Made by a program: the position numbers and the translations under genes. From contig NZ_AP021884.1 of NCBI RefSeq assembly GCF_009938015.1, positions 434,001-498,000 of the forward strand: 64,000 bases of DNA. Direction: 5' to 3'. The DNA is from Sulfuriferula plumbiphila. Lineage in GTDB: Bacteria; Pseudomonadota; Gammaproteobacteria; Burkholderiales; Sulfuriferulaceae. Numbering within the stretch: the stretch's first letter is position 1; each line of letters begins with the position of its first letter. The notes beneath the pieces are model-generated. The model was not told where the DNA came from. It worked only from the letters and a program-made list of their open reading frames with translations, and made no database searches. Positions 19,899 through 53,366 of this stretch are shown here, one piece after another.

Positions 19899-21206
19899 AT
19901 GTCGTCACCTTGCATCAACCGGGCGTCTTGGCGCCTCTTGATTTTCCTGATTGGTAGCACCTTGTTAGGCGGTCTCAGCCAGACCGCCAACGCCGCGGGA
20001 ATGACACGACTACAAGCAATCGATATTGCTGTTCAAAGCAATAAAGATCTGCAAGCCGCGCGCTATACCGTGGAACAAGCGCGCGCGCGTTTGCTGCAGG
20101 CAGGGCTGCCGCCTAATCCACGGCTGGATATCGCTGCGCGAAATGATCTCATTTTTAGAAACCAGGGAGAGTACGCGGCCAGCATTGGCATCAGCCAGCA
20201 GTTCTCTGTAGTGGGCCGTATTGCCCATCAAAAAGAAGTTGCGCGCGTGGATGTGGCCTTGGCTTTGGCCGAGATCAGACAAGCCGAGCTCAAGCTGGCA
20301 GGCGATGTAACGTCCCGATTTTATCGCATCCTGGCGCTGAATCGTCAGATCGAGGTACGCGAACGTTTGATGGATGTCGATCAAAAACTGGTACTGGGTA
20401 CACGTAACCGTTTCAAGGCTGCCGAAGTTTCCGAGCTTGACGTCAACACCGCTCAGCTCGAGCTACAGCGTCTAACTCAGGAACGCGCGCTGTTGCTGAG
20501 TCAGCGGATAACCCAACTGGCCCAGTTGAATCAACTTCTCGGAAGACCTGCAACACAAGCCATAGCGTTGAACGATGCCTTGCCGGCCAGTGACTCACTG
20601 CCGAGTTTGGCAAACCAGCAACGCCAGGCATTGTCGTCACGGCCGGACCTGCGTTTTGCACTGCTCAGCGCGAACCGGGCCCAGGCTAACCAGGCATTGG
20701 CGCGCGTGCAACGTTGGGAAGACTGGACTGTGGGCGTGGTGCTGGAACAAAGCCATCTGGTGATCGACGGGGGGCCATCCCAGGGAAGCAGCCGTGCCTT
20801 GGGGTTGAGCCTGTCGATTCCATTGCCATTGCGGAACAAGAATCAGGGGAACATCGCTGAAGCAGCAGCTACCGAAGCACAAGCTTACACGCGTATTGAA
20901 GCGCTCAAGCTCAGTATCGGCAACGAGGTGGCCAGCACTTACGCAGAAACCGAGCGTTTGCAACAGGCGCTATCGGAATACCAGCGCAATATGTTGGCGC
21001 TCAGCGCGCGCAACGTACGCCTTGCCCTGCAGGGGTACAACCAGGGGCTAATCCCTGTCGGTGACGTGGTTCGGATACAGCGCCAGCAGGGCGAGTTGAA
21101 TATTGCCTATCTGGATACGCTCGATCAATACCTTCAGGCATTGGCGAGATTGCATATCGCCACCGGGGATTATGCCGGATATGTACCCGAGCAAAAGACA
21201 CCATAG
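19899..21206 (+). CDS. Outer-membrane efflux factor (CzcC/CusC-like, TolC family)
   Basis: A 435-residue protein with a signal peptide (cleavage near NAA-GMTR). Two repeats of TolC-like helical hairpins follow: LQAARYTVEQARARLLQAGL with PPNPRLD in the first half and RPDLRFALLSANRAQANQAL in the second. It forms the trimeric outer-membrane channel of a tripartite pump. The next two genes encode the adaptor and the inner-membrane RND pump, in the usual C-B-A order with short gaps. Start at ATG 19899, ribosome site TTAGGAA. Confidence 0.88.
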   Translation: MSSPCINRASWRLLIFLIGSTLLGGLSQTANAAGMTRLQAIDIAVQSNKDLQAARYTVEQARARLLQAGLPPNPRLDIAARNDLIFRNQGEYAASIGISQQFSVVGRIAHQKEVARVDVALALAEIRQAELKLAGDVTSRFYRILALNRQIEVRERLMDVDQKLVLGTRNRFKAAEVSELDVNTAQLELQRLTQERALLLSQRITQLAQLNQLLGRPATQAIALNDALPASDSLPSLANQQRQALSSRPDLRFALLSANRAQANQALARVQRWEDWTVGVVLEQSHLVIDGGPSQGSSRALGLSLSIPLPLRNKNQGNIAEAAATEAQAYTRIEALKLSIGNEVASTYAETERLQQALSEYQRNMLALSARNVRLALQGYNQGLIPVGDVVRIQRQQGELNIAYLDTLDQYLQALARLHIATGDYAGYVPEQKTP

Positions 21207-21227
21207 AATCATTTTGAAGGAAATACC

Positions 21228-22205
21228 ATGCGAAATTTTTCCAAACCGCGTATGAGCAGTCAGCTGCTTAGGCAATTGCGCGGCCTGCTTTTTCTGGCCT
21301 TATTCACTGCGCCCGGCGCATTACCTTCCGCCTTTGCGCATGGGGGGGAGATCGAAGTGGGTGGCGGAGCGCGCGGTCCGGTGCAATTGAGCGCCGCACA
21401 GCAGAAGGCGATCGCCTTGCAGTTGGCGCCCGCCAGCTTCCGTCCACTCTCCACCGAGCTGAATCTGAACGGCGAGGTACAGTTGCAGCCTAATCGCCAG
21501 GCCGACGTCAGCCTGCGCATCAGTGGCCAGATCAAAGCACTGTACGCCAACCTGGGAGAGACGGTTCGGGCCGGCCAGCGTTTAGCGCTGGTGCAATCCC
21601 GGCTGGTGGGAGACCCGCCGCCCAGCGTGACCATTAATGCACCCATGAGTGGCGTGATCGACGCCCGCAATGCAGTCGTTGGCCAAGCGGTGGAACCCAA
21701 CACGGTATTGTTCCATATCAGCGACCGTTCTCAGGTTTTCGTAGTCGCGAGCGTGTATGAAGAAGATATCGGCAAGATCAAGCCAGGACAGGAAACTCGC
21801 GTCCGCGTGCTGAGCTATCCGAAGCAGGTGTTCACCGGTAAGGTCACCTTGATCGATCCCAATCTGGACCCGTTGAACCGTACCGTGAAGGTGTGGGTAC
21901 AGCTCGCCAATCCGCAGGGCTTGCTCAAACCCAACATGTTTGCTCGTGCCAGCGTTATTTTGCGGGCTAACGAGGCGGCGCTGACCATACCAAACGGCGC
22001 CATTATCGAAGCCAATGGCGAGAAATTCGTATTTGTTCGCAATGGAGGAAAATATAACCGTGTGGAAGTAAGTATTGGCGCCAAAGATGATGAATACAGT
22101 GAAATCACCGATGGCCTGGTACCTGGAGATGAGGTGGTGACCCAAGGCAATCGCCAGATCTACACCATGTGGCTTACCGGCGGCCAACCGAAAGCGGGGG
22201 AATAG
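21228..22205 (+). CDS. Periplasmic adaptor (CzcB/CusB-like membrane fusion protein)
   Basis: A 325-residue protein with an N-terminal signal (cleavage near AFA-HGGE). The barrel-sandwich hybrid (VSLRISGQIKALYANLGETV; SVTINAPMSGVIDARNAVVG), a beta barrel and a membrane-proximal domain (LVPGDEVVTQGNRQIY) are complete. The helical hairpin is short, typical of HME-type adaptors. HGGEIE at the mature start may bind metal. It is 21 bases after the channel gene, with AAGGAAAT as ribosome site. Confidence 0.88.
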   Translation: MRNFSKPRMSSQLLRQLRGLLFLALFTAPGALPSAFAHGGEIEVGGGARGPVQLSAAQQKAIALQLAPASFRPLSTELNLNGEVQLQPNRQADVSLRISGQIKALYANLGETVRAGQRLALVQSRLVGDPPPSVTINAPMSGVIDARNAVVGQAVEPNTVLFHISDRSQVFVVASVYEEDIGKIKPGQETRVRVLSYPKQVFTGKVTLIDPNLDPLNRTVKVWVQLANPQGLLKPNMFARASVILRANEAALTIPNGAIIEANGEKFVFVRNGGKYNRVEVSIGAKDDEYSEITDGLVPGDEVVTQGNRQIYTMWLTGGQPKAGE

Positions 22206-22210
22206 GAGTC

Positions 22211-25200
22211 ATGTTCAATCGCCTGATTGCCTGGTCGCTCCACAACCGCCTGATAGTCCTCGCTATCACGCTGGTCTTATTTGTCGCCGGCGGATATGCA
22301 TTGCAGCGGATGTCGGTAGACGTCTTCCCCGAGTTCGCTCCACCCCAAGTGGTGATACAAACCGAAGCGCCCGGTATGGCGCCGCAGGATGTGGAGTCAT
22401 TGGTGACCTATCCGCTAGAGAGCGCGATCAACGGTACGCCGGGTGTAAGCGACGTACGTTCCAAGACCTCCGTGGGACTATCGACCATTACCGTCATATT
22501 CAACGCAAATACCAATGTCTACCTGGACCGGCAACTGGTCAACGAGCGTATCCAGAACGTGACCGGCCGGCTTCCCGCAGGGACCAAGCCGCCGGTGATG
22601 CTGCCTGTCACATCGGCCGTGGGGTGGCTGGTTAAATATGCCCTGACCAGCAATACCTTATCCCCGGAGGAACTGCGCACGTTGTCCGACTGGGAAATCC
22701 GCCCGCGCATTCTGGCGCTGGGTGGCATCGCATCGGTGGTATCCATTGGCGGTGAGGTCAAGCAATACCAGGTACGCCTGGATCCAAGCCGAATGCTTGC
22801 CTATCAGATCAGCGCCGAAGAAGTGCGCAAGGCATTGGAAAAATCCAACACCAACGTGCCGGGCGCCTTTCTGCAGCATCCCGGGCAGGAATTGATCGTC
22901 GGCGGCGTCGGGCGCATTACCTCGCTGGACGACCTGAAAAATACCATTATCGTTATGCGCAATGGCGCCCCGATCACGATCGGCAATGTCGCGGAAGTCG
23001 CCTTCGGCGGCGAGATCAAGCGCGGCGACGGTGCCTTCGCAATGAAGAATGCGGTAATCGGAACCATTTCCAAGGCCTATGGCGCAGATACCCTTACCAC
23101 GACGTACAAGGTGGAAAAAGCACTCGCCGAATTAAAAAAACAATTACCGGCGGGCGTCCAGATGGATACGCAGGTGTTCCGGCAGGCGAACTTCATCGAG
23201 GCCGCGATTCACAATCTGAACGTGTCCCTGCTGGAGGGCGCGTTGATCGTGATCGCCGTGCTGTTCGTGTTCCTGATGAACTGGCGCGCTTCGTTCATTA
23301 CCTTTCTGTCCATGCCGGCCTCCTTCGTCGGCGGCATCCTGGTGATGCACGCTTTCGGCATCGGCATCAACTCCATGACTCTGGGCGGTCTGGCGATCGC
23401 CATCGGCGAAGTGGTCGACAACGGCATTATCACGGTGGAAAACGTGGTGCGGCGATTGCGGCTAAACCGCAATGCGGCACGTCCGTTGCCACCGATCGAG
23501 GTGGTGTTCGACGCGGTGCAGGAAATCCTCAACTCGGTGGTGTACGCGACGCTGATCGTGATCATGATCTTTCTGCCGATCTTCTTCCTGCAAGAACTGG
23601 CCGGGCGCATCTTCAGTCCCTTGGGGGTGGCCTATATCGCTTCGGTGACCGCTTCTTTGGTAGTGGCGGTGACCATGGTCCCGGCCCTATGCTATCTGCT
23701 GCTGGTGCGAAGCAAGGAAAAAACTCAGGATGAGGGTGTGGTCCTGCATGCCACGGACAGCCGCGAATTGCTTGCCGACACCACGCCGATTGGCGAAACC
23801 GGGGAACAGGAGACCCGTTTTGTCCTCTGGCTGAAACGTCATTTTCTGCGCCTCCTGAACCTGGCATTACGCAAATTTTGGTGGGTAGTCGGGCTGTCGC
23901 TGGTAGCGCTGGCGTCGTCGCTGGCCTTGCTGCCGTATTTCGGCCTGTCTTTCCTGCCGGAGTTTCGCGAAGGCAACTACATCATTGCCATGAACACTTT
24001 GCCGGGTACCTCGCTGCAAGAATCGATGCGCCTGGGCGCCCTGGTGCGTCAGGATCTGCTCAAATATCCACAGGTGGTCTCGATCGATCAGCGTGCTGGG
24101 CGCAGCGACCTGGACGAAGATGCGCAGCCGCCCAATTTCAGTGAATTTGACGTTCGGCTTGATTTTGCCAAAAACCCGAATATGACCGCAGAAACCTTGC
24201 TTGAGAAAATTCGCCAGGATCTGGCCGGGATACCGGGTGTCGTATTCAACGTTGGACAGTTCATCGCACATCGAATGGATGAAGTGCAATCCGGGGTACG
24301 CGCCCAGGTTGCCATCAAAATTTTCGGGAGTAACCTGTCCACGCTGTATCAACTGGGACAGAATGTCCAGCAGGTGTTGCATAGCGTACCCGGTGCGGTC
24401 GATATCAATCTGGAACAGCAGATCCGCGTACCGCAAGTCACCATCAAGATTGACCGCAGCAAGGCCGCCCGTTATGGCATGGCGGTCGGAGACATTGCAC
24501 AGGACATCCAGATGTCATTGAATGGGGAAGTCTTGTCCAGCGTGAAGGAAGGAAGCCGTACTTTCGATCTGTATGTGCGCCTGGAGCCGGCCGCGCGTAA
24601 CAGCATGGAAGCCATCCGTGACCTGTTGGTGGATGCGCCCGGCCTCAATCCCGATGGAAAGGCCAAGATACCGCTGCGGGAAGTGGCTGACGTAGAGGTT
24701 CAGGACGAGCCTTATTCCATTAACCGCGAAAGCGTACAGCGCTTGATTGTCGTCGCCTTCAACGTGCAGGGGCGGGATTTGGCAAGCGTTATCCGGGATA
24801 CGCAGTCCAAAATCGATGCCCAGGTAAAACTGCCATCAGGCTACCACATCGAATTTGGCGGTCAGTTTGAAAGCCAGCGGCAGGCCAACCAGACACTATT
24901 GAGCTTCGGCCTGCTGGCCCTGTTTGGCGCCGCAATCCTGCTATACAAGGTATTTGGCACGTTCCGCGAGGCGCTGCTGGTGCTGTTCAACCTGCCGCTC
25001 GCCATGATCGGCGGTATCGTTGCGCTCTATCTCGCCGGGGCGAACATGAGTGTCGCAGCGGTGATCGGCTTCATCACGCTATTTGGCATCGCTACCCGCA
25101 ACGGGATCATCCTGGTCACCCATTACAACCAACTGCGCAAGGAAGGAAAACCTTTGCAGGAAGTCGTGGTGCAAGGCACCCTTGACCGTCTGGTGCCGGT

Positions 25201-25408
25201 CTTGATGACGGCAGCCACCGCGTCATTGGGGCTGATCCCGCTGTTGTGGGGTTCGCCCGTCGGCAAGGAACTGGAACAACCACTGGCGCAGGTGGTGCTG
25301 GGCGGTCTGGTGACATCCACTTTCCTGAACATGATCGTCGTGCCCACGGTTTACAACCACATCGAACTCTGGCGCGAAAGGCGCCAAAGCAAGCTCAGCG
25401 CAGTTTAA
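22211..25408 (+). CDS. Heavy-metal RND efflux pump (CzcA/CusA family)
   Basis: A 1065-residue protein of full HME-RND length: helix 1 from the N-terminus, two large periplasmic loops and 12 helices. The proton-relay helix 4 reads GEVVDNGIITVEN (residues 399-411, with E400 and D403), different from the D-D pattern of CzcA, so the substrate class is uncertain. NMSVAAVIGFITLFGIATRN near the C-terminus is the conserved helix 11 region. The start ATG 22211 has GGAG in front; the open frame reaches back to 22169 inside the adaptor gene. It exports a divalent or monovalent metal from the periplasm. Confidence 0.92.
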   Translation: MFNRLIAWSLHNRLIVLAITLVLFVAGGYALQRMSVDVFPEFAPPQVVIQTEAPGMAPQDVESLVTYPLESAINGTPGVSDVRSKTSVGLSTITVIFNANTNVYLDRQLVNERIQNVTGRLPAGTKPPVMLPVTSAVGWLVKYALTSNTLSPEELRTLSDWEIRPRILALGGIASVVSIGGEVKQYQVRLDPSRMLAYQISAEEVRKALEKSNTNVPGAFLQHPGQELIVGGVGRITSLDDLKNTIIVMRNGAPITIGNVAEVAFGGEIKRGDGAFAMKNAVIGTISKAYGADTLTTTYKVEKALAELKKQLPAGVQMDTQVFRQANFIEAAIHNLNVSLLEGALIVIAVLFVFLMNWRASFITFLSMPASFVGGILVMHAFGIGINSMTLGGLAIAIGEVVDNGIITVENVVRRLRLNRNAARPLPPIEVVFDAVQEILNSVVYATLIVIMIFLPIFFLQELAGRIFSPLGVAYIASVTASLVVAVTMVPALCYLLLVRSKEKTQDEGVVLHATDSRELLADTTPIGETGEQETRFVLWLKRHFLRLLNLALRKFWWVVGLSLVALASSLALLPYFGLSFLPEFREGNYIIAMNTLPGTSLQESMRLGALVRQDLLKYPQVVSIDQRAGRSDLDEDAQPPNFSEFDVRLDFAKNPNMTAETLLEKIRQDLAGIPGVVFNVGQFIAHRMDEVQSGVRAQVAIKIFGSNLSTLYQLGQNVQQVLHSVPGAVDINLEQQIRVPQVTIKIDRSKAARYGMAVGDIAQDIQMSLNGEVLSSVKEGSRTFDLYVRLEPAARNSMEAIRDLLVDAPGLNPDGKAKIPLREVADVEVQDEPYSINRESVQRLIVVAFNVQGRDLASVIRDTQSKIDAQVKLPSGYHIEFGGQFESQRQANQTLLSFGLLALFGAAILLYKVFGTFREALLVLFNLPLAMIGGIVALYLAGANMSVAAVIGFITLFGIATRNGIILVTHYNQLRKEGKPLQEVVVQGTLDRLVPVLMTAATASLGLIPLLWGSPVGKELEQPLAQVVLGGLVTSTFLNMIVVPTVYNHIELWRERRQSKLSAV

Positions 25409-33277: not shown

Positions 33278-33573
33278 ATGAAACTTGCGCTACTGGGACT
33301 TGCCGCTTCGACGGCACTATTGATTACGGGCCAAACCTTGGCCGCCGATGGCAAAGAGGTCTACAACAAATCGTGTGCCATCTGCCCAATATAGAATCGC
33401 CGAAGCTCGGCGACAAGGCCGCATGGGCACCACGCCTCAAAAAGGGTACCGATGTCTTGGCGGCTTCAGTGTTAAAGGGTATGGGTGCGATGCCAGCAAA
33501 GGGTGGTAACGCCACCTTGTCAGAGGCCGACATCAAGGCTGCGGTGGATTATATGGTGGCCCAGCTTAAGTAA
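33278..33573 (+). pseudogene. Cytochrome c5-like gene with destroyed haem site
   Basis: Codons 1-36 give a signal peptide and EVYNKSCAIC, the start of the haem motif. The next codons are Pro-Ile-stop instead of His. In another frame the rest of a class I cytochrome c5 continues: SPKLGDKAAWAPRLKKGTDV and KGMGAMPAKGGNATLSEADI, with the Met ligand in GAMPAKGG. A deletion at about 33391-33400 removed the His and a few codons and shifted the frame. It would have been a periplasmic electron carrier. Confidence 0.82.
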
Positions 33574-33627: not shown

Positions 33628-36456
33628 ATGAAACCCAAAAAAAATATTGTCCTGATCACCGGCTGCAACGGACGCATCGGCGATGCGGTAATGCGGCGGC
33701 TGACCGGACGTTTCAGCGATGTCGTGGGCTTCGACCGCAACGCGCCCTCTCCGCCGCCGCCCGACTGCGTGCGCATACCGGTCGATATCGCTTCTGATGA
33801 CAGCTTACGCGAGGGACTGCGCATCCTGCGGGAACACCACGGAACCCGCATCGCCGCCGTGGTCCATTTAGCTGCCTATTACGATTTCCTCGGCAAGCCG
33901 AGCCCGAAATACGACGCGATCACAGTCGAGGGCACGCGACGTCTGCTGCGTGGGCTGCGCGAGGGCACCGGACGCATGCTGCGCGAGGGCTTCGAGGTCG
34001 AGCAATTCATTTTCGCCAGCACCATGCTCGTGCACCGGCCGGGCGAGCCGGGCCAGTTCATCACCGAGGACTGGCCGATCGGGCCAACCTGGGCCTACCC
34101 GGAGTCGAAGGTCCGCACCGAGGCGCTCATCCGGGCGGAGCGCGGCGCGATTCCCGCCGTGCTGCTTCGCTTCGCCGGCGTCTACGATGATGTCTGCCAC
34201 TCGCCGCCGCTCGCGCACCAAATTCAGCGCATCTACGAGCGGCAGCTCGCCGGCCATCTGTATTCCGGCGAGACCTCGCACGGCCAAGCCTTCATCCACC
34301 TGGACGACGTGGTGGATGCCATCGAGCGCGCCGTGGAGCGTCGCGCCCAACTGCCGCCGGAGGCGGCGATCCTCATCGGCGAGCCGGAGACGCTGAGCTA
34401 CGATGAACTGCAGCATACGTTTTCGCGGCTGATTCGCGACGAGTCGTGGGAGACGCACAATATTCCCGGGCCGATCGCGAAGGCCGGCGCATGGGTTCAG
34501 GACCACATTCCCGGCCAGGATCAGTTCATCAAGCCGTGGATGATCGATCGGGCTAACGATCATTACGCCCTCGACATCACGCGCGCCCGCACCTTGCTTG
34601 ATTGGGCGCCAAGTCGTTCGCTGCGCCAGACACTGCCCAAGATGGTAGCGGCATTGCAGGCCGATCCGTTCAGCTGGTACCGCGAGCACGGCCTGGAGCC
34701 GCCCGCGTCGATAACGCAGAAAGCAGAGCAAGCCGTGCCGCAGGTGACCGAGCAGCCCGAGCACGCGCCGGCGTCAGCGCATGTGCATGTGCATGCGCAA
34801 GGCTGCCTGATGCATGCCTGCCCGATGCACCCGGAAGTCTGTCAGTCTTCGCCGGGAAACTGTCCGCGGTGCGACACGAACCTGGAACCCCTCGCGCCGC
34901 CATCGCCGCAGGCGGTCGAATACACCTGCCCGATGCATCCCGAAGTCGTGCGCAACGAACCGGGCAATTGCCCCAAGTGCGGCATGACACTGGTGCCGCG
35001 CAGCGCCCCGGTGGAGCACGCGGACGAACATCCCGACATGATGGTCGACGAGCATCGGAAAATGCTCTGGCCGCACTATCTCAACATGATGCTCGGCTTG
35101 TGGCTGCTGACCAGCCCGTTTACGCTCGGCTATCTGAGCGATTTCGTCCCCGACGCGAATCAACTGCGCGTTATGGCCGAGCGCGGGCTGCCATCGTTTG
35201 ATCTGCGCAACCTGCTGATGACCTGGAGCGATGTCATCAGCGGAATTCTGGTTGTGGTCTTGAGTGCCTTGTCCGCCAACGCGTCGCGCCGCTATCCGTG
35301 GGCGCAGTGGGCAAACGCCTTCGTCGGCGTCTGGTTGCTGTTCGCTCCATTGGTATTCTGGACACCGTTGCCAGAGGCTTATGCGAATGGGACGCTGATC
35401 GGTGCGCTGGTGATCGCGTTTTCCGTGCTGGTCCCGATGATGCCGGGCATGAGCATGGCCGGCATGATGGGCGGGCCCGACGTACCACCGGGATGGGCCT
35501 ATACGCCGTCAAGCTGGTTGCAGCGCATGCCGATCGGGGTGCTCGCGCTGATCGGTTTTCTTATCGCACGCATTCTCGGCGCCTATCAGCTCGGCCATAT
35601 CGATAGTGTTTGGGAGCCATTCTTCGCCGGTAGCGGTGACATGAAGGGCGTGATGAACGGCACGGAGACGATCATTACTTCGGACGTGTCCAAGGCCTGG
35701 CCGATTGCCGATGGCGCCCTGGGCGGCATCGTCTACATGGCCGAACTGGTGATGGTTTGGATGGGTGGAAAAACTCGCTGGCGCACCATGCCGTGGATGG
35801 TACTCGCGCTGGCCATCCTGATCCTGCCGCTGGGCGTGGTGAGTATCTATTTCGTCATCATCCAGCCGATTGTGATCGGCACCTGGTGCACGCTGTGCCT
35901 GATCGCCGCGCTCGCGATGGCGGTGATGATTCCCTACGCGCTGAACGAATTCGTGGCGATGGGCCAATTCCTGGTTTGGGCGCGCCGCCAGGGCAAACCG
36001 TTCTGGCGCACCTTCTGGACCGGCGACGCGATGGAAGGCGGCAGCGCCGACAGGTCCAAAGGGCTCATCGGAACACCGCGCGAGCAGATCGCACAGGCCA
36101 CGCGCGGTGTGACCTATCCCTGGACGCTGACGCTCAGCATCGCGATCGGTGTGTGGCTCACGTTCACGCGGCTCAGCTTCGACACCTCGGGCGCCATGGC
36201 CGACAGCGATCACCTGATCGGTGCATTGGTGGTGACCTTCTCGATCATGGCCTACGCTGAGGTCGGCCGCGCCGTGCGCTTCATCAACATCCCGTTCGGC
36301 GTATGGTTGATCGCCGCACCGTGGCTGCTCGACGGTATCGCCTCGCCGCTGGCAATCTGGAACGGTGTCATCTGCGGAATACTGCTGATTGCATTGGCGA
36401 TCCCGCGCGGCCCGGTCAAGGATTCTTATGCGGGCTGGGATCGATATATTGTTTAG
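33628..36456 (+). CDS. Fusion protein: SDR epimerase / two heavy-metal-binding domains / SPW and VKOR membrane domains
   Basis: A 942-residue protein. Residues 1-345: short-chain dehydrogenase-like domain with ITGCNGRIG (11-18) and catalytic Y157-PES-K161. Residues 380-395: His-rich linker. Residues about 394-425 and 432-460: two short domains of the type CPMHPEV-(N/S)-PGNCP-C, known from copper proteins. From about 478: SPW-repeat helices (MMLGLWLLTSPFTLGYL; FVGVWLLFAPLVFW). A VKOR-like segment with C754-TL-C757 follows, then two more SPW-type blocks to the end. All parts are one open frame, with good codon use and no stop. VKOR parts form disulfides using quinone. The combination suggests a redox/metal membrane enzyme; its substrate is unknown. 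Cytochrome c lies 19 bases downstream. Confidence 0.8.
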   Translation: MKPKKNIVLITGCNGRIGDAVMRRLTGRFSDVVGFDRNAPSPPPPDCVRIPVDIASDDSLREGLRILREHHGTRIAAVVHLAAYYDFLGKPSPKYDAITVEGTRRLLRGLREGTGRMLREGFEVEQFIFASTMLVHRPGEPGQFITEDWPIGPTWAYPESKVRTEALIRAERGAIPAVLLRFAGVYDDVCHSPPLAHQIQRIYERQLAGHLYSGETSHGQAFIHLDDVVDAIERAVERRAQLPPEAAILIGEPETLSYDELQHTFSRLIRDESWETHNIPGPIAKAGAWVQDHIPGQDQFIKPWMIDRANDHYALDITRARTLLDWAPSRSLRQTLPKMVAALQADPFSWYREHGLEPPASITQKAEQAVPQVTEQPEHAPASAHVHVHAQGCLMHACPMHPEVCQSSPGNCPRCDTNLEPLAPPSPQAVEYTCPMHPEVVRNEPGNCPKCGMTLVPRSAPVEHADEHPDMMVDEHRKMLWPHYLNMMLGLWLLTSPFTLGYLSDFVPDANQLRVMAERGLPSFDLRNLLMTWSDVISGILVVVLSALSANASRRYPWAQWANAFVGVWLLFAPLVFWTPLPEAYANGTLIGALVIAFSVLVPMMPGMSMAGMMGGPDVPPGWAYTPSSWLQRMPIGVLALIGFLIARILGAYQLGHIDSVWEPFFAGSGDMKGVMNGTETIITSDVSKAWPIADGALGGIVYMAELVMVWMGGKTRWRTMPWMVLALAILILPLGVVSIYFVIIQPIVIGTWCTLCLIAALAMAVMIPYALNEFVAMGQFLVWARRQGKPFWRTFWTGDAMEGGSADRSKGLIGTPREQIAQATRGVTYPWTLTLSIAIGVWLTFTRLSFDTSGAMADSDHLIGALVVTFSIMAYAEVGRAVRFINIPFGVWLIAAPWLLDGIASPLAIWNGVICGILLIALAIPRGPVKDSYAGWDRYIV

Positions 36457-36475
36457 GAACTCTCGGGAGGTATCG

Positions 36476-37252
36476 ATGAACCATGACCTGAAACAGTATC
36501 CTCAGCCCATAACAGGTATGACGCTGCGCAGGTTGCCGGTCGCGATGCGCGCGCTGTTCTCATGCTTTCTGATCACGATCGGCATGGGATTTCTCGCGGC
36601 GATCTACTACCTCTTTCTGCAAGATGTCGACCCGCACCAGCGGATGGGTATGTCGCTCGTCCCCAGTGTGGCAGCGAAATACTATGGTGAACGGAGTGGC
36701 ACTCGTCTTGAGTCCGCTTTACGCGGATCCATGTCGAGCCGGATCAGCGCTGCGGACAAGGCGAAGGTCGTCGGCTGGCTGCGAGATGGCGCGACGCAGG
36801 ATGGATTCGCCGGCGTCCAGCCCATCTTCGAGAACACTTGCGCTGTTTGTCACAGCGCGAAGCCGGGTTTGCCGATCCCGCCTCTGACGACCTTCGAGCA
36901 AGTGAAGGCGTTAGCCCAAGTGGATATGGGAACCTCTCTTCTCGTGTTGGCACGCGTTTCCCATGTGCATCTGTTCGGCATCAGCATCATTTTTCTGCTC
37001 ACCGGGACAATTTTTGCGATGAGCGAAATTTCCTGGAAATGGCGCTTGCCGATCCTTGTGATTCCCTACCTCGCCATCTGGGCGGACATCGGCTCGTGGT
37101 GGATGACCAAGTACGAGCCGGTGTTTGCATATGTGGTCGTGGGCGGCGGCGCGCTCCTGGGCTCGGCGCTGGGCGTGCAAATTTTCTTTTCGCTGTGGGA
37201 AATGTGGTTTGCTGATCGCCCATCAAAACACACTCGCCAGCGCATGCTTTGA
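36476..37252 (+). CDS. Membrane-anchored cytochrome c protein
   Basis: A 258-residue protein. One N-terminal helix (about 20-48), a periplasmic part with a single haem site C122-AVCH126, then three or four helices (about 158-250). The haem domain begins DAVQP-like (FAGVQPIFENTCAVCHSAKP). The start ATG 36476 has GGGAGG in front, close behind the SDR/VKOR fusion, so the two form an operon. It could take electrons from the VKOR part or from quinol. The order is unlike common cytochromes, and no named family is recognised. Confidence 0.72.
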   Translation: MNHDLKQYPQPITGMTLRRLPVAMRALFSCFLITIGMGFLAAIYYLFLQDVDPHQRMGMSLVPSVAAKYYGERSGTRLESALRGSMSSRISAADKAKVVGWLRDGATQDGFAGVQPIFENTCAVCHSAKPGLPIPPLTTFEQVKALAQVDMGTSLLVLARVSHVHLFGISIIFLLTGTIFAMSEISWKWRLPILVIPYLAIWADIGSWWMTKYEPVFAYVVVGGGALLGSALGVQIFFSLWEMWFADRPSKHTRQRML

Positions 37253-37357
37253 AGACGCAGCGATCAGGACACCGGGATGACACCATGCCCGTCATCCAGC
37301 ATGCGAAGTTTGCGCTGCGCTATGCCGCGTATACGTAGTTCAAAGGAGGAAAGCGAG

Positions 37358-39037
37358 ATGGGCCACCGCGATGACGGCGCGACGCAATCCGATGCACTGG
37401 TGCTCTTCGGCATCACGGGGGATCTTGCCCACAAGAGAATTTTCCCGGCGCTCTATGCAATGGCGAAACGCGGCGGCGTCAACGTGCCGGTGGTGGGCGT
37501 CGCCACCTCGAAGTTGAGCTCGGCGCAATTGCGCGAGCGGGCGGCGGAGAGCATCGCGAAATCGGGCGGGATCGATGACCGGAAAGCCCTCGACCATCTG
37601 CTCTCGCTGCTTAGCTACGTGAGCGGTGACTATAACGCCCCGGGCACGTTCACGGCGATAAAAGAGGCGCTGGGCGGCGCCCGGCGCACTACCTGGCCAT
37701 CCCGCCCGCGCGTCATCGTCGAAAAACCGTTCGGGCGCGACCTGGCGTCGGCGCGGAAGCTCAACCGCATCGCGCTGTCGGTGTTCGCTGAAGACGCGAT
37801 CTTCCGCATCGACCACTATCTCGGGAAGGAGGCGATCATGAATATCCTCTATTTCCGTTTCGCCAATTCGTTTCTCGAGCCGATCTGGAACCGCAACTTT
37901 GTGGCCAGCATTCAGATCACGCTGGCCGAGGATTTCGGCGTGGAGGGCCGCGGCGCGTTTTACGAAAGCGCCGGTTGTTTGCGTGATGTTATCCAGAACC
38001 ATTTGTTCCAGATTGTCGCGCTGCTGGCCATGGAGCCGCCGGCCTATCAGGGCTATGGCGCCGTGCACAGCGAGAAAACCAAGGTGTTCCAGGCCATGCG
38101 CCCGCTGCAGCCGGACGACGTGGTGCGCGGCCAGTACACCGGCTACCGGAAAGAGCCGGGCGTGGCGCAGGGCTCGGATGTCGAGACGTTCTGCGCTCTG
38201 CGGCTGTTCATCGATTCGTGGCGCTGGGAAGGGGTGCCGTGGTATCTGCGCTCCGGCAAATGTCTGGCTGAAACTGCGGCCGAGGTCCTGGTGGAGTTGA
38301 AGCCGCCGCCGCAAAGGCTGTTCGACGATTCAGCCCCGGTGGACGGCCGGGCCAATTATCTGCGCTTCCGTCTCTCTCCCAACGCTGCCGTCGCCCTCGC
38401 CGCACGCGTCAAGCGCGCCGGCAAGGAGTTCGTCGGCGACCAGCGCGAACTCTACCTGCTGGAGGAACAGCCGGGAGAGCAAACACCCTACGAGCGGCTG
38501 AAGGCGATCGCCGGCAGCCACCCGTTCCAGATCGTGCTCGCCGGCAAGGCGCATCCGCGCGACGAGGGAGGTAAACACCTGATCGAGCAACTGCATGCGT
38601 ATGCTCGCGCACTCGAAGGCAGCTTGCCGGTCGCCTATCTGCCCGACTACGACATGGAAACCGCGCTTGCCCTGGTGTCGGGCGTGAACCTGTGGCTGAA
38701 CACGCCGCTGCGTCCGCTCGAAGCCTCCGGCACCAGTGGCATGAAGGCCGCGTTCAACGGCGTACCGAGCCTATCGGTGCTCGACGGCTGGTGGATTGAG
38801 GGCTGCATCGAGGGCGTGACCGGCTGGGCGATCTGCAATGCGGCGGGTGTGGCGGATGATGAAGCGAGTGCGCTCTACGACAAGCTCGAGCAAGCGGTGC
38901 TGCCGCTTTATTACGGAGACAGCGGCGATCCGGCTGGCTGGGTCAAAGTGATGAAAGGCGTGATCAGCAAGAACGCGTCCTATTTCAACAGCCATCGCAT
39001 GATGCGCCGCTATGCGACGGAGGCGTACATCCGATGA
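37358..39037 (+). CDS. Chimera: glucose-6-phosphate dehydrogenase with glucan phosphorylase tail
   Basis: A 559-residue frame. Residues 14-375 are G6[14 protein letters not shown] (18-29, NADP site), EKPFGRD (122-128), RIDHYLGKE (150-158). Around residues 108-118 the family has a longer segment; here [11 protein letters not shown] replaces it, and the bases show AHYLAIPP in another frame, so two indels remove about 20-25 residues. From about residue 385 the sequence is alpha-glucan phosphorylase (GlgP) C-terminus: [20 protein letters not shown], and [14 protein letters not shown] with the PLP lysine K463. G6PD lacks its last part and GlgP lacks most of its length. Whether it is active is doubtful. 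It has an excellent ribosome site (AAAGGAGG). Confidence 0.8.
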
Positions 39038-46541: not shown

Positions 46542-47099
46542 ATGGACTACGCCAAGCTCAGCAGCGATCTGAAGGAGATGCGCCGCCGCAACCGGGGCTT
46601 AGGTCTGGCCATCGGCGGCCTGGTCGCAGCACTGCTTACCTGCCTCGTCATCATCCTCAACCTGATCGGCACGGAGCGCACCATCGTCGTGCCGCCGTCG
46701 ATCGACAAGACCTTCTGGGTCACCAAGGACCGCGTCAGCCGCGAGTATCTGGAGCAGATGGGCAGCTTCGTCGCCTGGCTGATTCTGGACGTCACGCCCG
46801 CATCGATCGACTGGAAGAAAGACATCCTGCTCAACTACGTCGCGCCCGACCGGTACGGCGCCATGAAGTCGCGCCAGGAAATCGAGGCCGAGCGGCTCAA
46901 GCGCATCAACGCCAGCACTTTTTTCCTGCCGCAGCAGCTCGTCGCGAATGAGGACAACCAGACCGTCGTCGTTCGTGGGCGCTTGCGCACCCAGGTGAAC
47001 GGCCAGGACACGGCGACGGAAACCAAGGCCTACCTCGCCGAGTTCCAGTACGTCGGCGGCCGCATGCATCTGAAAGCCTTCAAGGAGATTTCCCAATGA
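46542..47099 (+). CDS. traE: TraE, F-type T4SS core protein
   Basis: A 185-residue protein: one N-terminal helix (about 22-42) and a periplasmic VirB8-like domain (TFWVTKDRVSREYLEQMGSF; ASTFFLPQQLVANEDNQTVV). It builds the inner-membrane part of the channel. The stop overlaps traK (ATGA). Confidence 0.9.
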   Translation: MDYAKLSSDLKEMRRRNRGLGLAIGGLVAALLTCLVIILNLIGTERTIVVPPSIDKTFWVTKDRVSREYLEQMGSFVAWLILDVTPASIDWKKDILLNYVAPDRYGAMKSRQEIEAERLKRINASTFFLPQQLVANEDNQTVVVRGRLRTQVNGQDTATETKAYLAEFQYVGGRMHLKAFKEISQ

Positions 47100-47902
47100 T
47101 CAGCAAGCCGTGGTTTTTGCCGCCGCTGGCGACGGCGGCAGCGCTCGCCAGCCTCTCCGCCCATGCCCTGCAGATCGTCGAAGCGCACGACGGCGTCACT
47201 GTCGAAGCGGTCATCGCGATCAAGGAACCGACCCGCATCCGGATCGAGAACGCATCGATCACCGACGTGTTCGGCAACCTCTACTCGAGCAATTGCGGGC
47301 TGCCCGCCGCCGCGGCGGGTACGCCGTCGCCCGCGACACCAACCGTCAATCCGGCCGGCGAAATTGCGCTGGAGTGCGACCGCGACAAGGGGGAAATCTA
47401 CGTGCGCCCGGTCGGCGACTCGACCAAGCCGGTCAACCTGTTCGTGTCTTCGGCGAACGCCACCTACACACTGCTGCTGCGGCGCTCGGACACGCCGTCC
47501 GACACCATCGTCATCCGCGACAGGACAGCGCGACTGGCGGGGCCCGAACTTTCCCCCACGCGTCAAGGTCCGCTCGGGGCGTCCGCCAATCATATCCGCG
47601 CGATGAAAGCGCTGCTGGTGGCGATGGCCTCCGACCGGGTCGCACCGGATGTGCGCGTGGAAGAAATCGACCGGCCGGTCCAGCTCTGGAGCGAGGCCAA
47701 GTTCTCGCTGATGCGGACCTACGAGGGACGCGGCCTGGTCGGCGAGAAATACCTGCTGACCAATATCAGCGATCAAACGATGGTGCTGGCCGAACAGGAA
47801 TTCGACCGGGAGGAGGGCGGCGTCGTCGGCGTCGCCATCGAGAACCTCAATCTCCGCCCCGGTGAAAGCACCAGCGTCTACGTGATCCGGCTGGGGAGCT
47901 GA
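47096..47902 (+). CDS. traK: TraK, F-type T4SS secretin-like component
   Basis: A 268-residue protein with a signal peptide (cleavage near AHA-LQIV). The mature part is rich in beta strands, with EIALECDRDKGEIYVRPVGD and TYTLLLRRSDTPSDTIVIRD; VirB9-like. It forms the outer-membrane core complex with TraB and TraV. Two bases separate it from traB. Confidence 0.88.
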   Translation: MISKPWFLPPLATAAALASLSAHALQIVEAHDGVTVEAVIAIKEPTRIRIENASITDVFGNLYSSNCGLPAAAAGTPSPATPTVNPAGEIALECDRDKGEIYVRPVGDSTKPVNLFVSSANATYTLLLRRSDTPSDTIVIRDRTARLAGPELSPTRQGPLGASANHIRAMKALLVAMASDRVAPDVRVEEIDRPVQLWSEAKFSLMRTYEGRGLVGEKYLLTNISDQTMVLAEQEFDREEGGVVGVAIENLNLRPGESTSVYVIRLGS

Positions 47903-47904
47903 CC

Positions 47905-49290
47905 ATGGGCGCATTCGATACATCGAAGTTCAGGAGCGCGATTGGGCGTCTCACCCCGAAGCAGCGCCAGTACGCAACGCTCGCGGCGATCATGGCGTGC
48001 GGCGTCGGGGCCTTGTGGGCCGTCTTTGCCTTCACCGGCGGCGCAACGAAGATCGCCGATTCACAACAGTCCGCCGTATCCGCCGGTGCGGCCTCGGTCA
48101 CCAACATCGGCGTCATGTCGCCGGGCCAGCAGGTCAATCCGGTCGACCAGTGGGTCGGTACCGCCGGCCGCAAGCTCGCCCAGTACGAGCACGAGCGCGA
48201 AGAGCAATCCCGCGTCAACCGGGACCGCAAGGAGTTCGAAGACAGGACGATGCAGCGTTTCGGCGAGCTGGAGCAACGGCTGACTGCGGCCGGACAGGCT
48301 CAGACTGCCGCTGCAACACCACCGCCAACGCCAACACCACCGGCACCGACGCAGTATCCACCTCCCAGCGCTTTGCCCGCCAATCTGCCTCCGCCGCCTG
48401 GGCGATCCGTTCCGTCTGCGGCAGTGCCTGCGGGTGCGCCGGCCGACGGCGTGGAAACACGGACACCGGGACTGGTGCATGTGTCGATGGCCGACGCAGG
48501 CAAGGTGACGCAGTCCCAGGCACCCCAGTCTCCGTCCGCCAAGCCGGGGCGCAATGGCGGCGGCCGCACCGGCACGATCGACACCTATCTGCCGGTCAGT
48601 TTCACGCGCGGCGTTTTGCTTGGCGGGCTGGACGCACCGACTGGCGGCCAGTCCCAATCCAATCCGCAGCCGGTGCTGATCCGGCTTTCCGACAACTCCG
48701 TGCTGCCCAACAAGTTCCGGGGCGAGTATCGGGAGTGCTTCGTCATCGCCGCCGGCTATGGCGACATCAGTTCCGAGCGCGCCTACCTGCGCACCGAGAA
48801 CCTGTCATGCGTACGCGATGACGGCTCCACGCTCGAAGTCAAGATACAGGGCAGCGTGTATGGCGAAGACGGCAAGGTCGGCATGCGCGGGCGTCTGGTC
48901 ACCAAGCAGGGACAGATGCTGGCCAACGCCCTGCTCGCCGGCATCGCCAGCGGCATCGGCCAAGGCCTGTCGACATCCTCCACGAACTACAGCACCTCGG
49001 CGCTCGGCACCATCGCCAGCACCTCAGGCAGCGAAACCTACCGCGCCGGGCTCGGCAGCGGCGTCGGCCGCGCGCTGGACCGGCTGGCCCAGTACTACAT
49101 CAAGCTCGCCGAACAGACTTTCCCCGTCGTCGAAATCGACGCCGGTCGCGAGGTCGATGTCGTCATCACCAAGGGTGTGCGCATTGACGCACCCGTCATC
49201 GCCAAAGCTCGCCCGACATCGAACGTCGCCTTTGCGCGCCGTTCGCCCGAAGAACGCTACCTGAAGGAATCCGACGATGAAGACTACTGA
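47905..49290 (+). CDS. traB: TraB, F-type T4SS scaffold protein
   Basis: A 461-residue protein. One N-terminal helix (about 30-50), a coiled-coil and Pro-rich linker ([20 protein letters not shown]) spanning the periplasm, and a VirB10-like C-terminal domain ([39 protein letters not shown]). The antenna region is Ser/Gly-rich ([12 protein letters not shown]). It connects inner and outer membranes. It overlaps the next gene by 14 bases. Confidence 0.92.
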
Positions 49291-50095
49291 CCGTGCGCTG
49301 CTGGCTGTCGCCCTGGCCCTTGCGGGTATCTCTTTCGACGCCGCTGCGGCAGCCGACGAGACGCGCCTGCTGGCTGCACTGCAGAAGGCGCACCCCGGCA
49401 CACACTTCACCGGCGTCTCCCGCACACCCATTCCCGGTCTGTACGAGGTGTGGATGGGTCCCAACGTGGCGTTCGTTTCCAACAGGAACCTGCGCTACCT
49501 GGTCTTCGGCCGCGTGTTCGACACGAAGACCATGACCGACCTGACCGCGCCGAGACTCGCCCAAGCGGAGCGCCTGCGATTGGTCGCCGGGGATCGGGAA
49601 GACATCGCGCCCGCCGTCCCGGTCGAGCAGTTACCGCTGGCCGACGCCATCAAGACCGTGCGCGGCAACGCCAGCCGCACCGTCGTCATCTTCAGCGACC
49701 CCGCCTGTCCTTATTGCAAGCGGCTGGAACCGGAGCTCGATAAGCTCGACAACGTGACGATCTACACGTTCCTGGTGCCGTTCCAGGGCTATGCGCTACC
49801 GACCGCCGTCTGGTGCGCTGCTGACCGGCAGAAAGCCTGGCACCAAACCATGCAGCGGGGCGACCAGAGTTTGCTAGCCACGTCCCCATCGCCCACCTCC
49901 TGCGCGCATCCGCTCGAACGCAATCTCGCGCTCGCCCAGCGGCTGAAGGTGCGCGGCACGCCCACGATCTTCTATGCGGACGGCCGTCGCAGCGATGGCT
50001 ATGTCGATGCCGCCGAAATCGAATCCCGTCTGGTGCTTGCGGCCTCCCATTCGCCCGATGCCGGCGCTGCCCGTCAGAAGGAGGCCCCGCAATGA
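49277..50095 (+). CDS. DsbC-like disulfide isomerase of the conjugation operon
   Basis: A 272-residue protein with a signal peptide (cleavage near AAA-ADET). The N-terminal dimerisation domain and C-terminal thioredoxin fold carry [20 protein letters not shown] (CPYC) and a cis-Pro in [11 protein letters not shown]. It should shuffle disulfides in Cys-rich proteins such as TraN and TraU here. Its size and order are typical for DsbC in SXT-like elements. It overlaps both neighbours. Confidence 0.9.
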
Positions 50096-50772
50096 CCCTC
50101 CCATTCATTTCGACGCGCGGCATCACCGCGCTGGTCGCCTGCGTTTCGCTCCTGTTGTCCGCGTGCGCCAGCATCAGCGGCCTGGGCGGCAGTACCGAGT
50201 ACGGCTGCAAGGCGCCGCAGGGCATGCAGTGCGATTCGGTGTCCGGCAATTATTACAACGCGATCCGGAACGATCTGCCGAGCCAGCGCCGCCAGACCGA
50301 TGCGGCGGGCAGCACTGCTGCCGCTGGTCCGCGACCGGCCGCCGTGAATGCCTCGGCAGTGGCAGCCGCACGTTTGCCGGTTATCGGCCAAACGGGCACC
50401 GGCAATACGCCGCCCGTGACACTCGCGGCCTTGCCCCTGCGCTCCCAGGCCCGCGTGCTGCGGCTCTGGTTCAAACCCTGGGAAGACGCGGACTACGACT
50501 TGTACGACCAGGGCTTCGTCTACGTGCAGATCGACAATGGCCGCTGGCTGATCGATCACGCGCAGCGGCGGATCCGCGATGCCTATGCACCGATTCGTCC
50601 GCCGCACCCGGCCGCTTCGGCATCGGTGTCGCAGCCCACCACCGCACCAGCCAAGCCGGCCGATCCCGGTTTCTTCGGTGCCGCTCCGCCAGAGAACACG
50701 CCCGGCCCCCTGGCAGCCCCCTCGAAACCGTTGCCGGGCGCGAGCGATCTGCCTGCCGACGACGGCCAATGA
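50092..50772 (+). CDS. traV: TraV, outer-membrane lipoprotein of the T4SS core
   Basis: A 226-residue lipoprotein. Lipobox LLSAC near residue 23. The typical conserved front [20 protein letters not shown] follows, then a Pro/Ala-rich body and [19 protein letters not shown]. It anchors TraK and TraB in the outer membrane. The start overlaps the stop of the DsbC-like gene (ATGA). Confidence 0.85.
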
Positions 50773-50795
50773 CCGCGTAAACCAGGGAGATACTC

Positions 50796-53366
50796 ATGTT
50801 CGATTCCATTCGCACAGGATTGCTCGATGCCGTCGGCGCCGGTCACGGGAGCAATGGTTTTTTCGGGTTGCGCGGGCGGGACGAATCGCCCGCCGAGCAA
50901 TTCGCCAGTTGGCTGCCCTATTCGGCCTATATCGGCGGCGACGACATCTTCGTCAACCGCGACAACCTCGGCTTCATGCTCGAGGTCATGCCTCAGTCCG
51001 GCGCGGACGAACGCATGGTCGAAGTGCTGATCTCCCTATACGCCACCTGCCCCAAGGGCGCGGGGGTGCAGTTTCACCTGTTCGCGTCGCCGCATGTGCG
51101 CGGCCTGTTGCGCCACTACGCCAATCTGCGCATGGAGGACGAGGACCAGGCCGAGAAGGCCAAGCACTGGGGCCGTCCCGCACGCAACGAAAACCTGTTT
51201 CGCCGGCTCGCGCGCCAACGTGTCGGCCATCTGCTGCACGGCGCGCAAAAGTCGATGACGTCCGGATTCCATTACACCATCCGCGACTTCCGGCTGATGA
51301 TGAGCGTGGCGCTACCGGGCAGTGCCGACGACTTGAACCGGCGCGACGAACTGATCGCGCTGCGCGAGGCCATGTCCACCACCTTGCGTGCAGCCTCGCT
51401 GCCCAACCGTGTCTGCGACGCCGCCGACCTGATCAACTGGTGCTCGCTGTTCACCAACCCGGACCGCATCTCGCGTACCGACACACCCGATCTGCGCTAC
51501 GACGACGGCCGCGAGATCCGTGACCAGATCGTCGATTTCGACACGATCCAGGACGCCTATGCGAACGGGCTGCGCCTGTGGAAGGAAGGCGACTCCAACG
51601 CGCTCGAAGCGCGGTTCTACTCGATCAAATCCTTCCCGGAGCGCTTTGCGCTGTGGCAGATGGGTTCGCTGATCGGCGACCTGATGCAGCCGGCGCTGCA
51701 ATACAACGCCCCGTTCCTGCTGACGATGGGCGTCCACATGCTCGACCCCAACGCGACCAAGACCATGGTGACGGCCAACCACGTCCGGGCGACGCAAAAC
51801 GCCCAGAGCAAGATGGCCGCGGTGATGCCGGACGTCAACAAGAAGCTGAAGGATTGGAATGCCGCCGCCGATGCGATCGATGTCGGCGGCGCGCTGGTCA
51901 GCATGTACCACCAGTTCGCCATTTTCACGCCCCCCGACAAGGCGGTCGCGGTCGAGGAAACCGCCAAGGCGATCTGGCGCGCGCGGGGATTCGAACTCAA
52001 CGCCGACGTGTACATGCACCGCCAAGCGCTGATCGCCAGCTTGCCGATGACGCTGTCCGAACGGTTCCATGGTGATCTCAGGAAGATGCGTCGCGTCACC
52101 CGCAAGACCATGGCCAACGCCATTCACTTAGCGCCCTTGATCGCCGAATGGCGCGGCACGCGCACGCCGACGCTGGTCTTCGGCGGCCGGCGCGGCCAGT
52201 TGATGACGCTGGACCTATACGACAACGATTTAGGCAATTACAACTTCGCGATCATCGGCGCCCCTGGCTCCGGCAAGTCGGTGCTGATGAACGAGATGGC
52301 CTGGTCGTATCGCGCGATCGGCGCCAAGGTCTGGATGCTGGACCTGGGGCGCTCGTTCGAGAAGCTGTGCCGCAAGGCCCGTGGCACCTACATCGAGTTC
52401 CGACCGGACGTCGATATCTGCCTGAACCCGTTCTCGATCGTGCAAGACATCAACGAGGACGTCGACATGCTGGTGCCCGCGATCGCCAAGATGGCATCGA
52501 TGCAGCACACGCTCGAAGAGGTACAGTACAAGGCCATTTCGGCGATGATCTTGAAGCTCTTTCGGGAGTACGGTCGCGACCTCACGGTTACCGGCCTGCG
52601 CGACGCCTTCAAGACAGGCACGATCGAGGAACTCGGCGTGGTCAACGATTCACGCATCCGCGATCTGGCGATCATGCTCAACCCCTATGCCAGGGGCGGC
52701 CAATATGAGCGCTTCTTCGAGGGGCGCAGCAGCATCGATTTCAGCAACGACTTCATCGTCATCGAGAACGAGGAACTCAAGCGCAAGCCCGACCTGCACG
52801 CGGTCGTCAACATTCTGCTGCTGTACCAGATCACTGGTGAGATGTACCTGACGCGCAATCGCAAAAAGGTGCTATTCATCGACGAACTGAAACAGCAGCT
52901 CGGCGATATCGGCGCCGACGACCCGGTCAAGGCAGCCGTGGTCGAAGAAGCTGCACGGCGCGCCCGCAAGTACGGCGGCGCATTGGGCACCGCGACGCAG
53001 AGCGCCGACGACTATTACGGATCGGCGCAGATGGAAGCCGCGTTCAACTGCTCCGACTGGGTCTTCCTGCTGCGGCAAAAAAAAGAATCGATCGAGATGC
53101 TGGACCGCAAAGGCCGGCTGACGATGGATGAATCGAAGAAACGCCTGCTCAATTCGCTGCGCACCGAGCCCGGCGTGTTCTCCGAGCTCTACATCTCCTC
53201 GCCGGTGGGCGAAGGGGTCGCCCGCAACATACTCGATCCGGCGACGCACCTGCTGTTCTCCAACAAGCTGGAAGACAACGCACCGATCGACGAACTGCGC
53301 GCACGAGGCTACAGCATCGATGACGCGATCAGCGAGTTGCTGCGCCAAAGAGGGCATGTGGTATGA
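50796..53366 (+). CDS. traC: TraC, conjugation ATPase (VirB4-like)
   Basis: An 856-residue protein. N-terminal TraC_F domain, then the ATPase: Walker A GAPGSGKS (residues 488-495, K494), Walker B KKVLFIDEL, and the SADDYYGS/NCSDWVFLLRQ region. It powers pilus assembly at the inner membrane. It overlaps the next gene by 4 bases (ATGA) and has a good ribosome site (GGGAGA). Length and motifs are complete, so it is likely active. Confidence 0.95.
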   Translation: MFDSIRTGLLDAVGAGHGSNGFFGLRGRDESPAEQFASWLPYSAYIGGDDIFVNRDNLGFMLEVMPQSGADERMVEVLISLYATCPKGAGVQFHLFASPHVRGLLRHYANLRMEDEDQAEKAKHWGRPARNENLFRRLARQRVGHLLHGAQKSMTSGFHYTIRDFRLMMSVALPGSADDLNRRDELIALREAMSTTLRAASLPNRVCDAADLINWCSLFTNPDRISRTDTPDLRYDDGREIRDQIVDFDTIQDAYANGLRLWKEGDSNALEARFYSIKSFPERFALWQMGSLIGDLMQPALQYNAPFLLTMGVHMLDPNATKTMVTANHVRATQNAQSKMAAVMPDVNKKLKDWNAAADAIDVGGALVSMYHQFAIFTPPDKAVAVEETAKAIWRARGFELNADVYMHRQALIASLPMTLSERFHGDLRKMRRVTRKTMANAIHLAPLIAEWRGTRTPTLVFGGRRGQLMTLDLYDNDLGNYNFAIIGAPGSGKSVLMNEMAWSYRAIGAKVWMLDLGRSFEKLCRKARGTYIEFRPDVDICLNPFSIVQDINEDVDMLVPAIAKMASMQHTLEEVQYKAISAMILKLFREYGRDLTVTGLRDAFKTGTIEELGVVNDSRIRDLAIMLNPYARGGQYERFFEGRSSIDFSNDFIVIENEELKRKPDLHAVVNILLLYQITGEMYLTRNRKKVLFIDELKQQLGDIGADDPVKAAVVEEAARRARKYGGALGTATQSADDYYGSAQMEAAFNCSDWVFLLRQKKESIEMLDRKGRLTMDESKKRLLNSLRTEPGVFSELYISSPVGEGVARNILDPATHLLFSNKLEDNAPIDELRARGYSIDDAISELLRQRGHVV

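Follow-up and report, generated by a model that had tools for sequence, protein, structure and literature searches.

What is the function of a protein that joins a short-chain dehydrogenase/reductase (SDR), a metal-binding linker and a membrane bundle of the vitamin K epoxide reductase (VKOR) type in a single chain? This question is raised by a fusion gene at 33628..36456 (+) of a 64,000-nucleotide stretch of the Sulfuriferula plumbiphila genome (NZ_AP021884.1, positions 434,001 to 498,000), which is the whole stretch analysed and is called the window below. We found that the gene encodes a multi-domain protein that is mobile and recurs in copper and other metal islands. No described function was found for it, and resistance operons are consequently annotated under two misleading names, epimerase and VKOR. 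Our preferred reading, which is tentative and falls somewhat short of an even chance, is that the protein may be an NAD-dependent SDR that is anchored in the membrane and carried by mobile metal-stress islands; it would be tuned by soft metal bound to its linker, and its VKOR fold would serve as a scaffold without a relay.

The open reading frame (ORF) was uninterrupted, started with ATG and comprised 942 codons, as had been claimed in the first-pass annotation, which was made from the sequence alone. In a Pfam scan of the whole protein, Epimerase (E 3.9e-17), HMBD (E 7.9e-19, two stretches), VKOR (E 4e-20, residues 635-771) and SPW (E 6.9e-24, two stretches, 84.6 bits vs a cut-off of 31.5) were all matched above their gathering scores. 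The motifs named in that annotation were also present: TGCNGRIG at residues 11-18 and YPESK at 157-161 (containing Y157 and K161) for the SDR, two copies of CPMHPEV (398-404 and 434-440), both with PGNCP further along, for the metal modules, and CTLC at 754-757 (C754 and C757) for the CxxC of the VKOR part.

Relatives of the fusion were encoded by at least 529 genome stretches and matched by 492 plasmid records, 118 of which covered ≥80% of the query at a single site; the possibility that the fusion occurs only here was thereby ruled out. No relative of the fusion, or of the membrane cytochrome described below, was found in the viral contigs scanned. The 80 loci examined were the best of the at least 529, so the fusion rate and the clade shares are biased towards near, linked copies. 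The fusion was a complete single ORF in 59 of these 80 loci, the recurrence that had been proposed as a check on the first-pass reading. The other 21 comprised four cut by a contig end and 17 in two or more ORFs, each of which may be either two genes or a broken frame. A Pontibacter plasmid copy, outside the 80, was annotated as two adjacent genes, and in several Bacteroidota loci the membrane and SDR parts lay in neighbouring ORFs. These results demonstrated that the fusion is common but not universal. The 77-row tree contained Pseudomonadota, Bacteroidota, Acidobacteriota, Gemmatimonadota, Deinococcota and one archaeon-labelled genome. Because relatives with the same domain order exist in several phyla, the fusion is not a product of chance. 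The window's clade is taken here as 16 tree rows plus one locus (L118) without a membrane part, whose position was taken from its SDR sequence.

In the window's class, the membrane half was found in 6 of 274 genomes among the matches listed, one of these being a fragment, a sparse presence as expected of a mobile gene. A second, broken copy was found in the same genome at 2.153 Mb (G000:C1:2153369-2154364, L165); its membrane pieces were 76-82% identical to those of the window, and none of the marker proteins was matched in the surrounding 18 kb. Another genome, G302, carried two HMBD-type fusions (G302:C1:755567-758545 and 2547560-2550826, frames of 1002 and 1093 aa), each followed by a glucose-6-phosphate dehydrogenase (G6PD) gene. 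Full-length relatives are already entered in databases, mainly as "NAD-dependent epimerase/dehydratase family protein" or as "vitamin K epoxide reductase family protein" (for example WP_189424537.1 and WP_024018514.1), but these entries consist of annotation only. Six such plasmid proteins were 44-57% identical to the fusion, and all six lacked the HMBD. No paper describing the fusion was found in a search of an open-licence library, subscription papers being outside its coverage. One report mentions a hypothetical VKOR in a Sulfobacillus plasmid region, which may or may not correspond to the fusion (PMC6803676). As a separate observation, genes for ornithine carbamoyltransferase and carbamate kinase were seen upstream of a split SDR/VKOR pair in L100, and L116 had members of the same clusters.

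The SDR part (residues ~4-355, 33637..34692, +) was recognised as an extended SDR by its Pfam Epimerase match, its fold and its motifs. By structure comparison it aligned to UDP-glucose 4-epimerase, dTDP-glucose dehydratase and their kin with Z of 28-30 over ~290-314 residues. It thus shares the fold, the glycine motif and the YxxxK pair with the GalE/RmlB group, but is only 15-24% identical to these structures. The YxxSK pair was present in all 60 fused rows, and the third glycine of TGxxGxxG was replaced by alanine in 15 rows. D36, at the end of strand 2, was invariant in a 38-row alignment (A2). In SDRs an aspartate at this position points to NAD, and the residue fits an NAD-type enzyme. 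The GalE NCBIfam equivalog scored 29.9 bits vs a cut-off of 262.3, and the HpnA score was also far below its cut-off. Dehydratases of this group carry a TDE motif, but the window SDR has STM in its place.

Between the SDR and the membrane part lay a linker rich in His, Met and Cys (residues 352-471, 34681..35040, +), delimited by composition and containing both HMBD modules. Module 1 (CPMHPEV...PGNCPRC, 34816..34893, +) and module 2 (CPMHPEV...PGNCPKC, 34921..34998, +; best Pfam stretch 432-457) were identified by Pfam and motif. The median content of His, Met and Cys was 16.7% in the linkers of the 60 fused rows vs 5.6% and 5.9% in the parts on either side. The HMBD motif was found in only 16 of 77 rows, and 14 of these belonged to the window's clade; elsewhere the linkers were short or His/Met-rich in place of HMBDs. 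By this count, the two HMBDs are mainly a trait of the window's clade and not a defining part of the fusion. Residues 428-465 matched chains of the copper efflux ATPases 3rfu and 8ovl, which relates them to the HMBD (PF19335) of copper P-type ATPases; but here the modules are flanked by an enzyme and by a membrane part other than an ATPase, and most relatives have none. A second stretch of potential soft-metal ligands was the Met-rich loop MMPGMSMAGMM (residues 604-614, 35437..35469, +), identified from alignment and topology and predicted to be cytoplasmic, in which M605 was conserved in 77/77 rows.

The membrane part consisted of a VKOR domain (residues 635-771, 35530..35940, +, with CTLC at its helix 4), identified by Pfam and by VKOR structure matches, between two SPW repeats, as the first-pass annotation had described. 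SPW repeat 1 (35218..35424, +) and SPW repeat 2 (residues 832-924, 36121..36399, +), both Pfam matches, contributed four predicted helices before and four after the VKOR domain; two such matches relate the window protein to the SPW repeat proteins (PF03779). Pfam VKOR matched 54/54 scanned sequences, and SPW likewise 54/54. The membrane part was modelled separately from 54 sequences, with a predicted local distance difference test (pLDDT) of 87 and a predicted template-modelling score (pTM) of 0.83. In VIA-align comparisons of this model the top eight matches were all VKOR structures, with Z from 9.2 to 7.2 and root-mean-square deviations of 2.9-4.4 over 134-144 residues; the first non-VKOR fold had Z of 6.7, and for helical bundles Z below ~13 may reflect chance or a common arrangement. 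Foldseek gave no match to the model at E 0.001, no transporter fold included, and a profile of the membrane part gave no match to PDB sequences at E 1. Because the top eight structural rows were unanimous and Pfam VKOR and SPW were matched throughout, a VKOR fold is predicted for this part, as had been anticipated, and the alternative that no such fold is predicted was ruled out by the same eight rows. To our knowledge no function has been assigned to SPW, and the phrase "SPW repeat" was absent from the papers in the open-licence library.

Twelve helices were predicted, with 16 Arg/Lys in the predicted inner loops vs 4 in the outer loops. The helix count and this split fit an N-in topology, with a cytoplasmic SDR, linker and Met-rich loop and with the CxxC at the outer face. 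The CxxC opened helix 4, its position in VKOR enzymes too (PMC11208910). VKOR enzymes contain conserved cysteine pairs (PMC4555120). They have a loop pair between helices 1 and 2 and the CxxC at helix 4, and the residue four places after the CxxC, aromatic or Arg, helps to bind quinone (PMC11208910).

These features were then compared over the 77 rows. No cysteine was found within 648-722, the region of the loop pair, in any row, and the residue at CxxC+4 was Ala in 72 rows and Gly in 5, never W, Y or R. The CxxC itself was present in 42 rows and replaced by SxxA in 35, which formed one clade and were separated by a single change on a well-supported tree branch. All 35 SxxA copies were complete ORFs, indicating that the protein has been retained without these cysteines. 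They (L007, L012 and rows between L062 and L121) belonged mainly to sphingomonads, Microvirga and other Alphaproteobacteria, and many of them lay in copper islands. On the other hand, D695, Y703, W723, Q746, M605 and M764 were conserved in 77/77 rows. The missing relay residues together with these invariant positions imply that conservation of the VKOR module does not serve the classical DsbA-quinone relay; the quinone-linked thiol oxidation put forward in the first-pass annotation is thus not supported by the alignment. The fusion therefore resembles VKOR enzymes (Synechococcus 3kp9/4nv5, human 6wv3) in its predicted four-helix bundle and in the CxxC opening helix 4, but differs from them in the absent loop CXnC pair, in Ala/Gly at CxxC+4, in the loss of the CxxC in one clade, in the absence of any matched thioredoxin domain, and in the setting of the bundle between SPW repeats and its connection to an SDR. 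The SxxA clade is a natural experiment in which the whole VKOR-fold protein was kept and the thiols were lost, so that scaffold and thiol function are separable.

Neighbouring genes were compared over 88 loci (the 80, the window and seven plasmid loci; the frame-broken P. fungorum locus L009 was excluded from the counts), with gene calls made by a greedy longest-ORF method and with near-relative loci that are not independent. Of these, 50/88 had a neighbour of one or more of four kinds (CusA, multicopper oxidase, P-type ATPase, MerR), namely 45 of the 71 loci outside the window's clade (the other 26 had none of the four gene clusters) and 5 of the 17 inside it; recurrence in metal islands had been proposed as a check in the first-pass annotation. 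Two or more of these kinds were present in 23/88 loci, none of which belonged to the window's clade. CusA was found in 16 of 29 loci vs ~0.2 expected from the CusA density of the same genomes, where the test loci were hand-picked among long ones and the density was a hand count of 40 rows at ≥50% identity in 132 Mb. For the window's clade, 20 loci were compared (two from G302 and one from G186 being added): cyclopropane-fatty-acid (CFA) synthase was a neighbour in 8, G6PD in 7, an ICMT/PEMT-type methyltransferase in 6, a GDE/GH100-like hydrolase was near in 4, and a P-type ATPase, named by marker matches and by likeness to the window's own, was near in 5.

The first-pass annotation had overlooked a recurrent set of downstream genes, which encoded a trehalase-type glycoside hydrolase of family GH15, related glycoside hydrolases, or a glucose or glucose-6-phosphate dehydrogenase. 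GH15, MGH1-like, GDE/GH100 or G6PD genes were found within 3.5 kb 3' of the fusion and on the same strand in 15/88 loci, from several families and phyla, G6PD recurring beside the fusion in the window's clade. The count rose to 18/88 when a glucose-1-dehydrogenase-type SDR at ≥40% identity was included. The profile assignment of this neighbouring type was glucose 1-dehydrogenase subfamily. In six loci an SDR started 14-25 bases after the fusion, five of these SDRs being 76-100% identical to the query and one 30%. The GH15 protein matched Pfam Glyco_hydro_15 and TREH_N and was below the NCBIfam TreH1 cut-off; its gene overlapped the end of the fusion by 4 bases in L124 and L125. GH15 was present in 8/88 loci vs ~0.1 expected, several of the eight being from near relatives, with the density (33 in ~126 Mb over 24 genomes) taken from genomes picked to include GH15-positive ones and used for density only. 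Because different glycoside hydrolase families hold the same place across phyla, a metabolic tie seems likelier than common descent from a single operon. These recurrent trehalase and glucose-dehydrogenase neighbours suggest a testable tie of sugar-derived reducing power to metal tolerance. In the window itself, profile matches showed that in an ORF further downstream (37277..39037, +) a largely retained G6PD ran on in frame into the C-terminal section of an alpha-glucan phosphorylase; its first, G6PD part looked incomplete, and the ORF reads as a deletion fusion of two island genes.

The gene that follows the fusion encoded a membrane c-type cytochrome of 258 aa with one CAVCH haem motif (36476..37252, +). 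Its likely ATG at 36476, behind GGGAGG, lay 19 bases after the fusion stop ending at 36456, the spacing originally noted. No Pfam or NCBIfam family was matched at E 0.001, and none at 0.01 for the longer form of the ORF. A small c-type cytochrome gene whose frame is broken at the haem motif was present just upstream of the fusion (33279..33573, +). The cytochrome had been regarded as a partner of the fusion, but its family was found in 43/274 genomes of the window's class, of which three, namely the window's own, G302 and G186, also had the fusion among the matches listed, beyond which weak fusion matches may exist. In G302 the fusions and the cytochrome were ~9 and 12 kb apart. The fusion was absent from the flanks (~1.5 kb) of 33 cytochrome loci other than that of the window, and a tblastn search of plasmids with the cytochrome gave no match. 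In the window's clade, 5/17 loci had a c-type cytochrome, from either of two families, directly 3' of the fusion (0/71 elsewhere), and 8/17 had one within 5 kb (4/71 elsewhere), the neighbour cytochromes being recognised by CxxCH and a hydrophobic start and not by profile. The link between fusion and cytochrome is thus real but local and loose, and a constant partnership was ruled out by the class-wide and clade counts.

Under the preferred reading, the SDR would face the cytoplasm and use NAD to oxidise, reduce or epimerise a substrate of the sugar type, as suggested by the SDR fold and the neighbours; the trehalase/glucan and glucose-dehydrogenase genes nearby might provide this substrate. 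On the cytoplasmic side, Cu(I) or a comparable soft metal would be bound by the Met-rich loop and by the linker, through its HMBDs here and His/Met-rich stretches in many relatives, and the bound metal would tune the SDR or the way in which it assembles. The 12 helices of the SPW-VKOR-SPW part would form a scaffold in the membrane, its VKOR bundle having ceased to run a DsbA-to-quinone relay; where the CxxC is retained, it would be at most a simple site for a disulfide or a metal, facing the periplasm. In the window's clade, the adjacent c-type cytochromes would be optional associates.

Several results weigh against this picture. The CxxC was kept in all 42 rows outside the SxxA clade, distant phyla included, which argues that the cysteines matter there. 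Some linkers were not rich in metal ligands, the lowest His, Met and Cys content being 7%. The 26 loci without a copper-gene neighbour have to be considered, as do the 73/88 loci that had no sugar gene of the above kinds within 3.5 kb 3', although many of the contigs end early. The full 942-residue structure model had a pTM of only 0.50, too low for the domain packing to be read from it. No characterised member or experiment was found in literature and database searches. Finally, a CueR-like dyad upstream of the window gene was rejected, since its score of 8 was equalled by 40/40 shuffles. The scan used the CueR consensus, and of the upstream stretches scanned only that of L058 stood out (score 11/14, reached by 1/40 shuffles).

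Of the other explanations, the one that survived best was that of a plain SDR, tethered to the membrane and acting on envelope lipids or sugars during general stress, whose association with metal would come from shared mobile islands. The sugar genes 3' of the fusion, the CFA synthase and methyltransferase genes near it in the window's clade, and the same 26 loci speak for it, but the metal-ligand-rich linker found across clades and the strong CusA enrichment speak against it, and we consider it rather unlikely, if still a competitor. Less probable again is a metal-stress membrane enzyme in which a sugar-type NAD SDR would be gated by linker-bound soft metal, and in which the CxxC and adjacent cytochromes of the window's clade would form a private thiol/haem outlet replacing the loop cysteines.

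The first-pass annotation itself had favoured an envelope metal-redox system, in which the CxxC thiols would be oxidised via quinone and coupled to NAD(P)H and the cytochrome. The CxxC of 42 rows from phyla as distant as those above, the predicted VKOR fold, the cytochromes directly 3' in the window's clade, and thioredoxin-like and CcdA/DsbA/TlpA genes near some copies are all compatible with it. However, it would need a relay whose loop pair is absent throughout, whose quinone-binding residue is never W, Y or R and whose CxxC was lost in 35 rows; the cytochrome is seldom linked, and no electron carrier between SDR and VKOR was matched. In the Pfam scan the fusion protein had no match to a domain for flavin, haem or Fe-S, so that no route for electrons from the SDR through the membrane was inferred: four redox chemistries side by side do not amount to an electron chain. 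We regard this reading as improbable. An equally doubtful one, a soft-metal (copper) relay or exporter in which the linker and Met loop would collect Cu(I), the CxxC and M764 would hand it to the periplasm and the SDR would sense the redox state, agrees with the metal-ligand-rich linker, the invariant M605 and M764 and the copper-island setting, but not with the 35 rows without CxxC, many of them in copper islands, the lack of a transporter fold match at E 0.001, and the exporters already present among the neighbours.

Other genes of the window describe the setting of the fusion. A P-type ATPase with an HMA domain (3991..6408, stop excluded, +) and an outer-membrane factor, CusB-like adaptor and RND (resistance-nodulation-division) pump (19899..25405, +; the first ORF was judged by eye) belong to the same island. 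A DUF5676 gene was located upstream of the fusion, and HMA and thioredoxin-like proteins and a weak, below cut-off cupredoxin-like match were also observed. Genes for F-type conjugation (TraE, TrbI-like, TraC, TraH and TraG_N; 46542..63999, +) were identified by profile matches. The ATPase, pump, HMA and conjugation genes together indicate a metal island with a conjugative element close by; the conjugation genes are possibly part of an integrative conjugative element, and no tRNA gene was found within the 64-kb window. Between the fusion and these genes, at 41168-43388, a relative of cyclopropane-fatty-acid synthase was observed, of which only the start was present, broken off near a DDE transposase.

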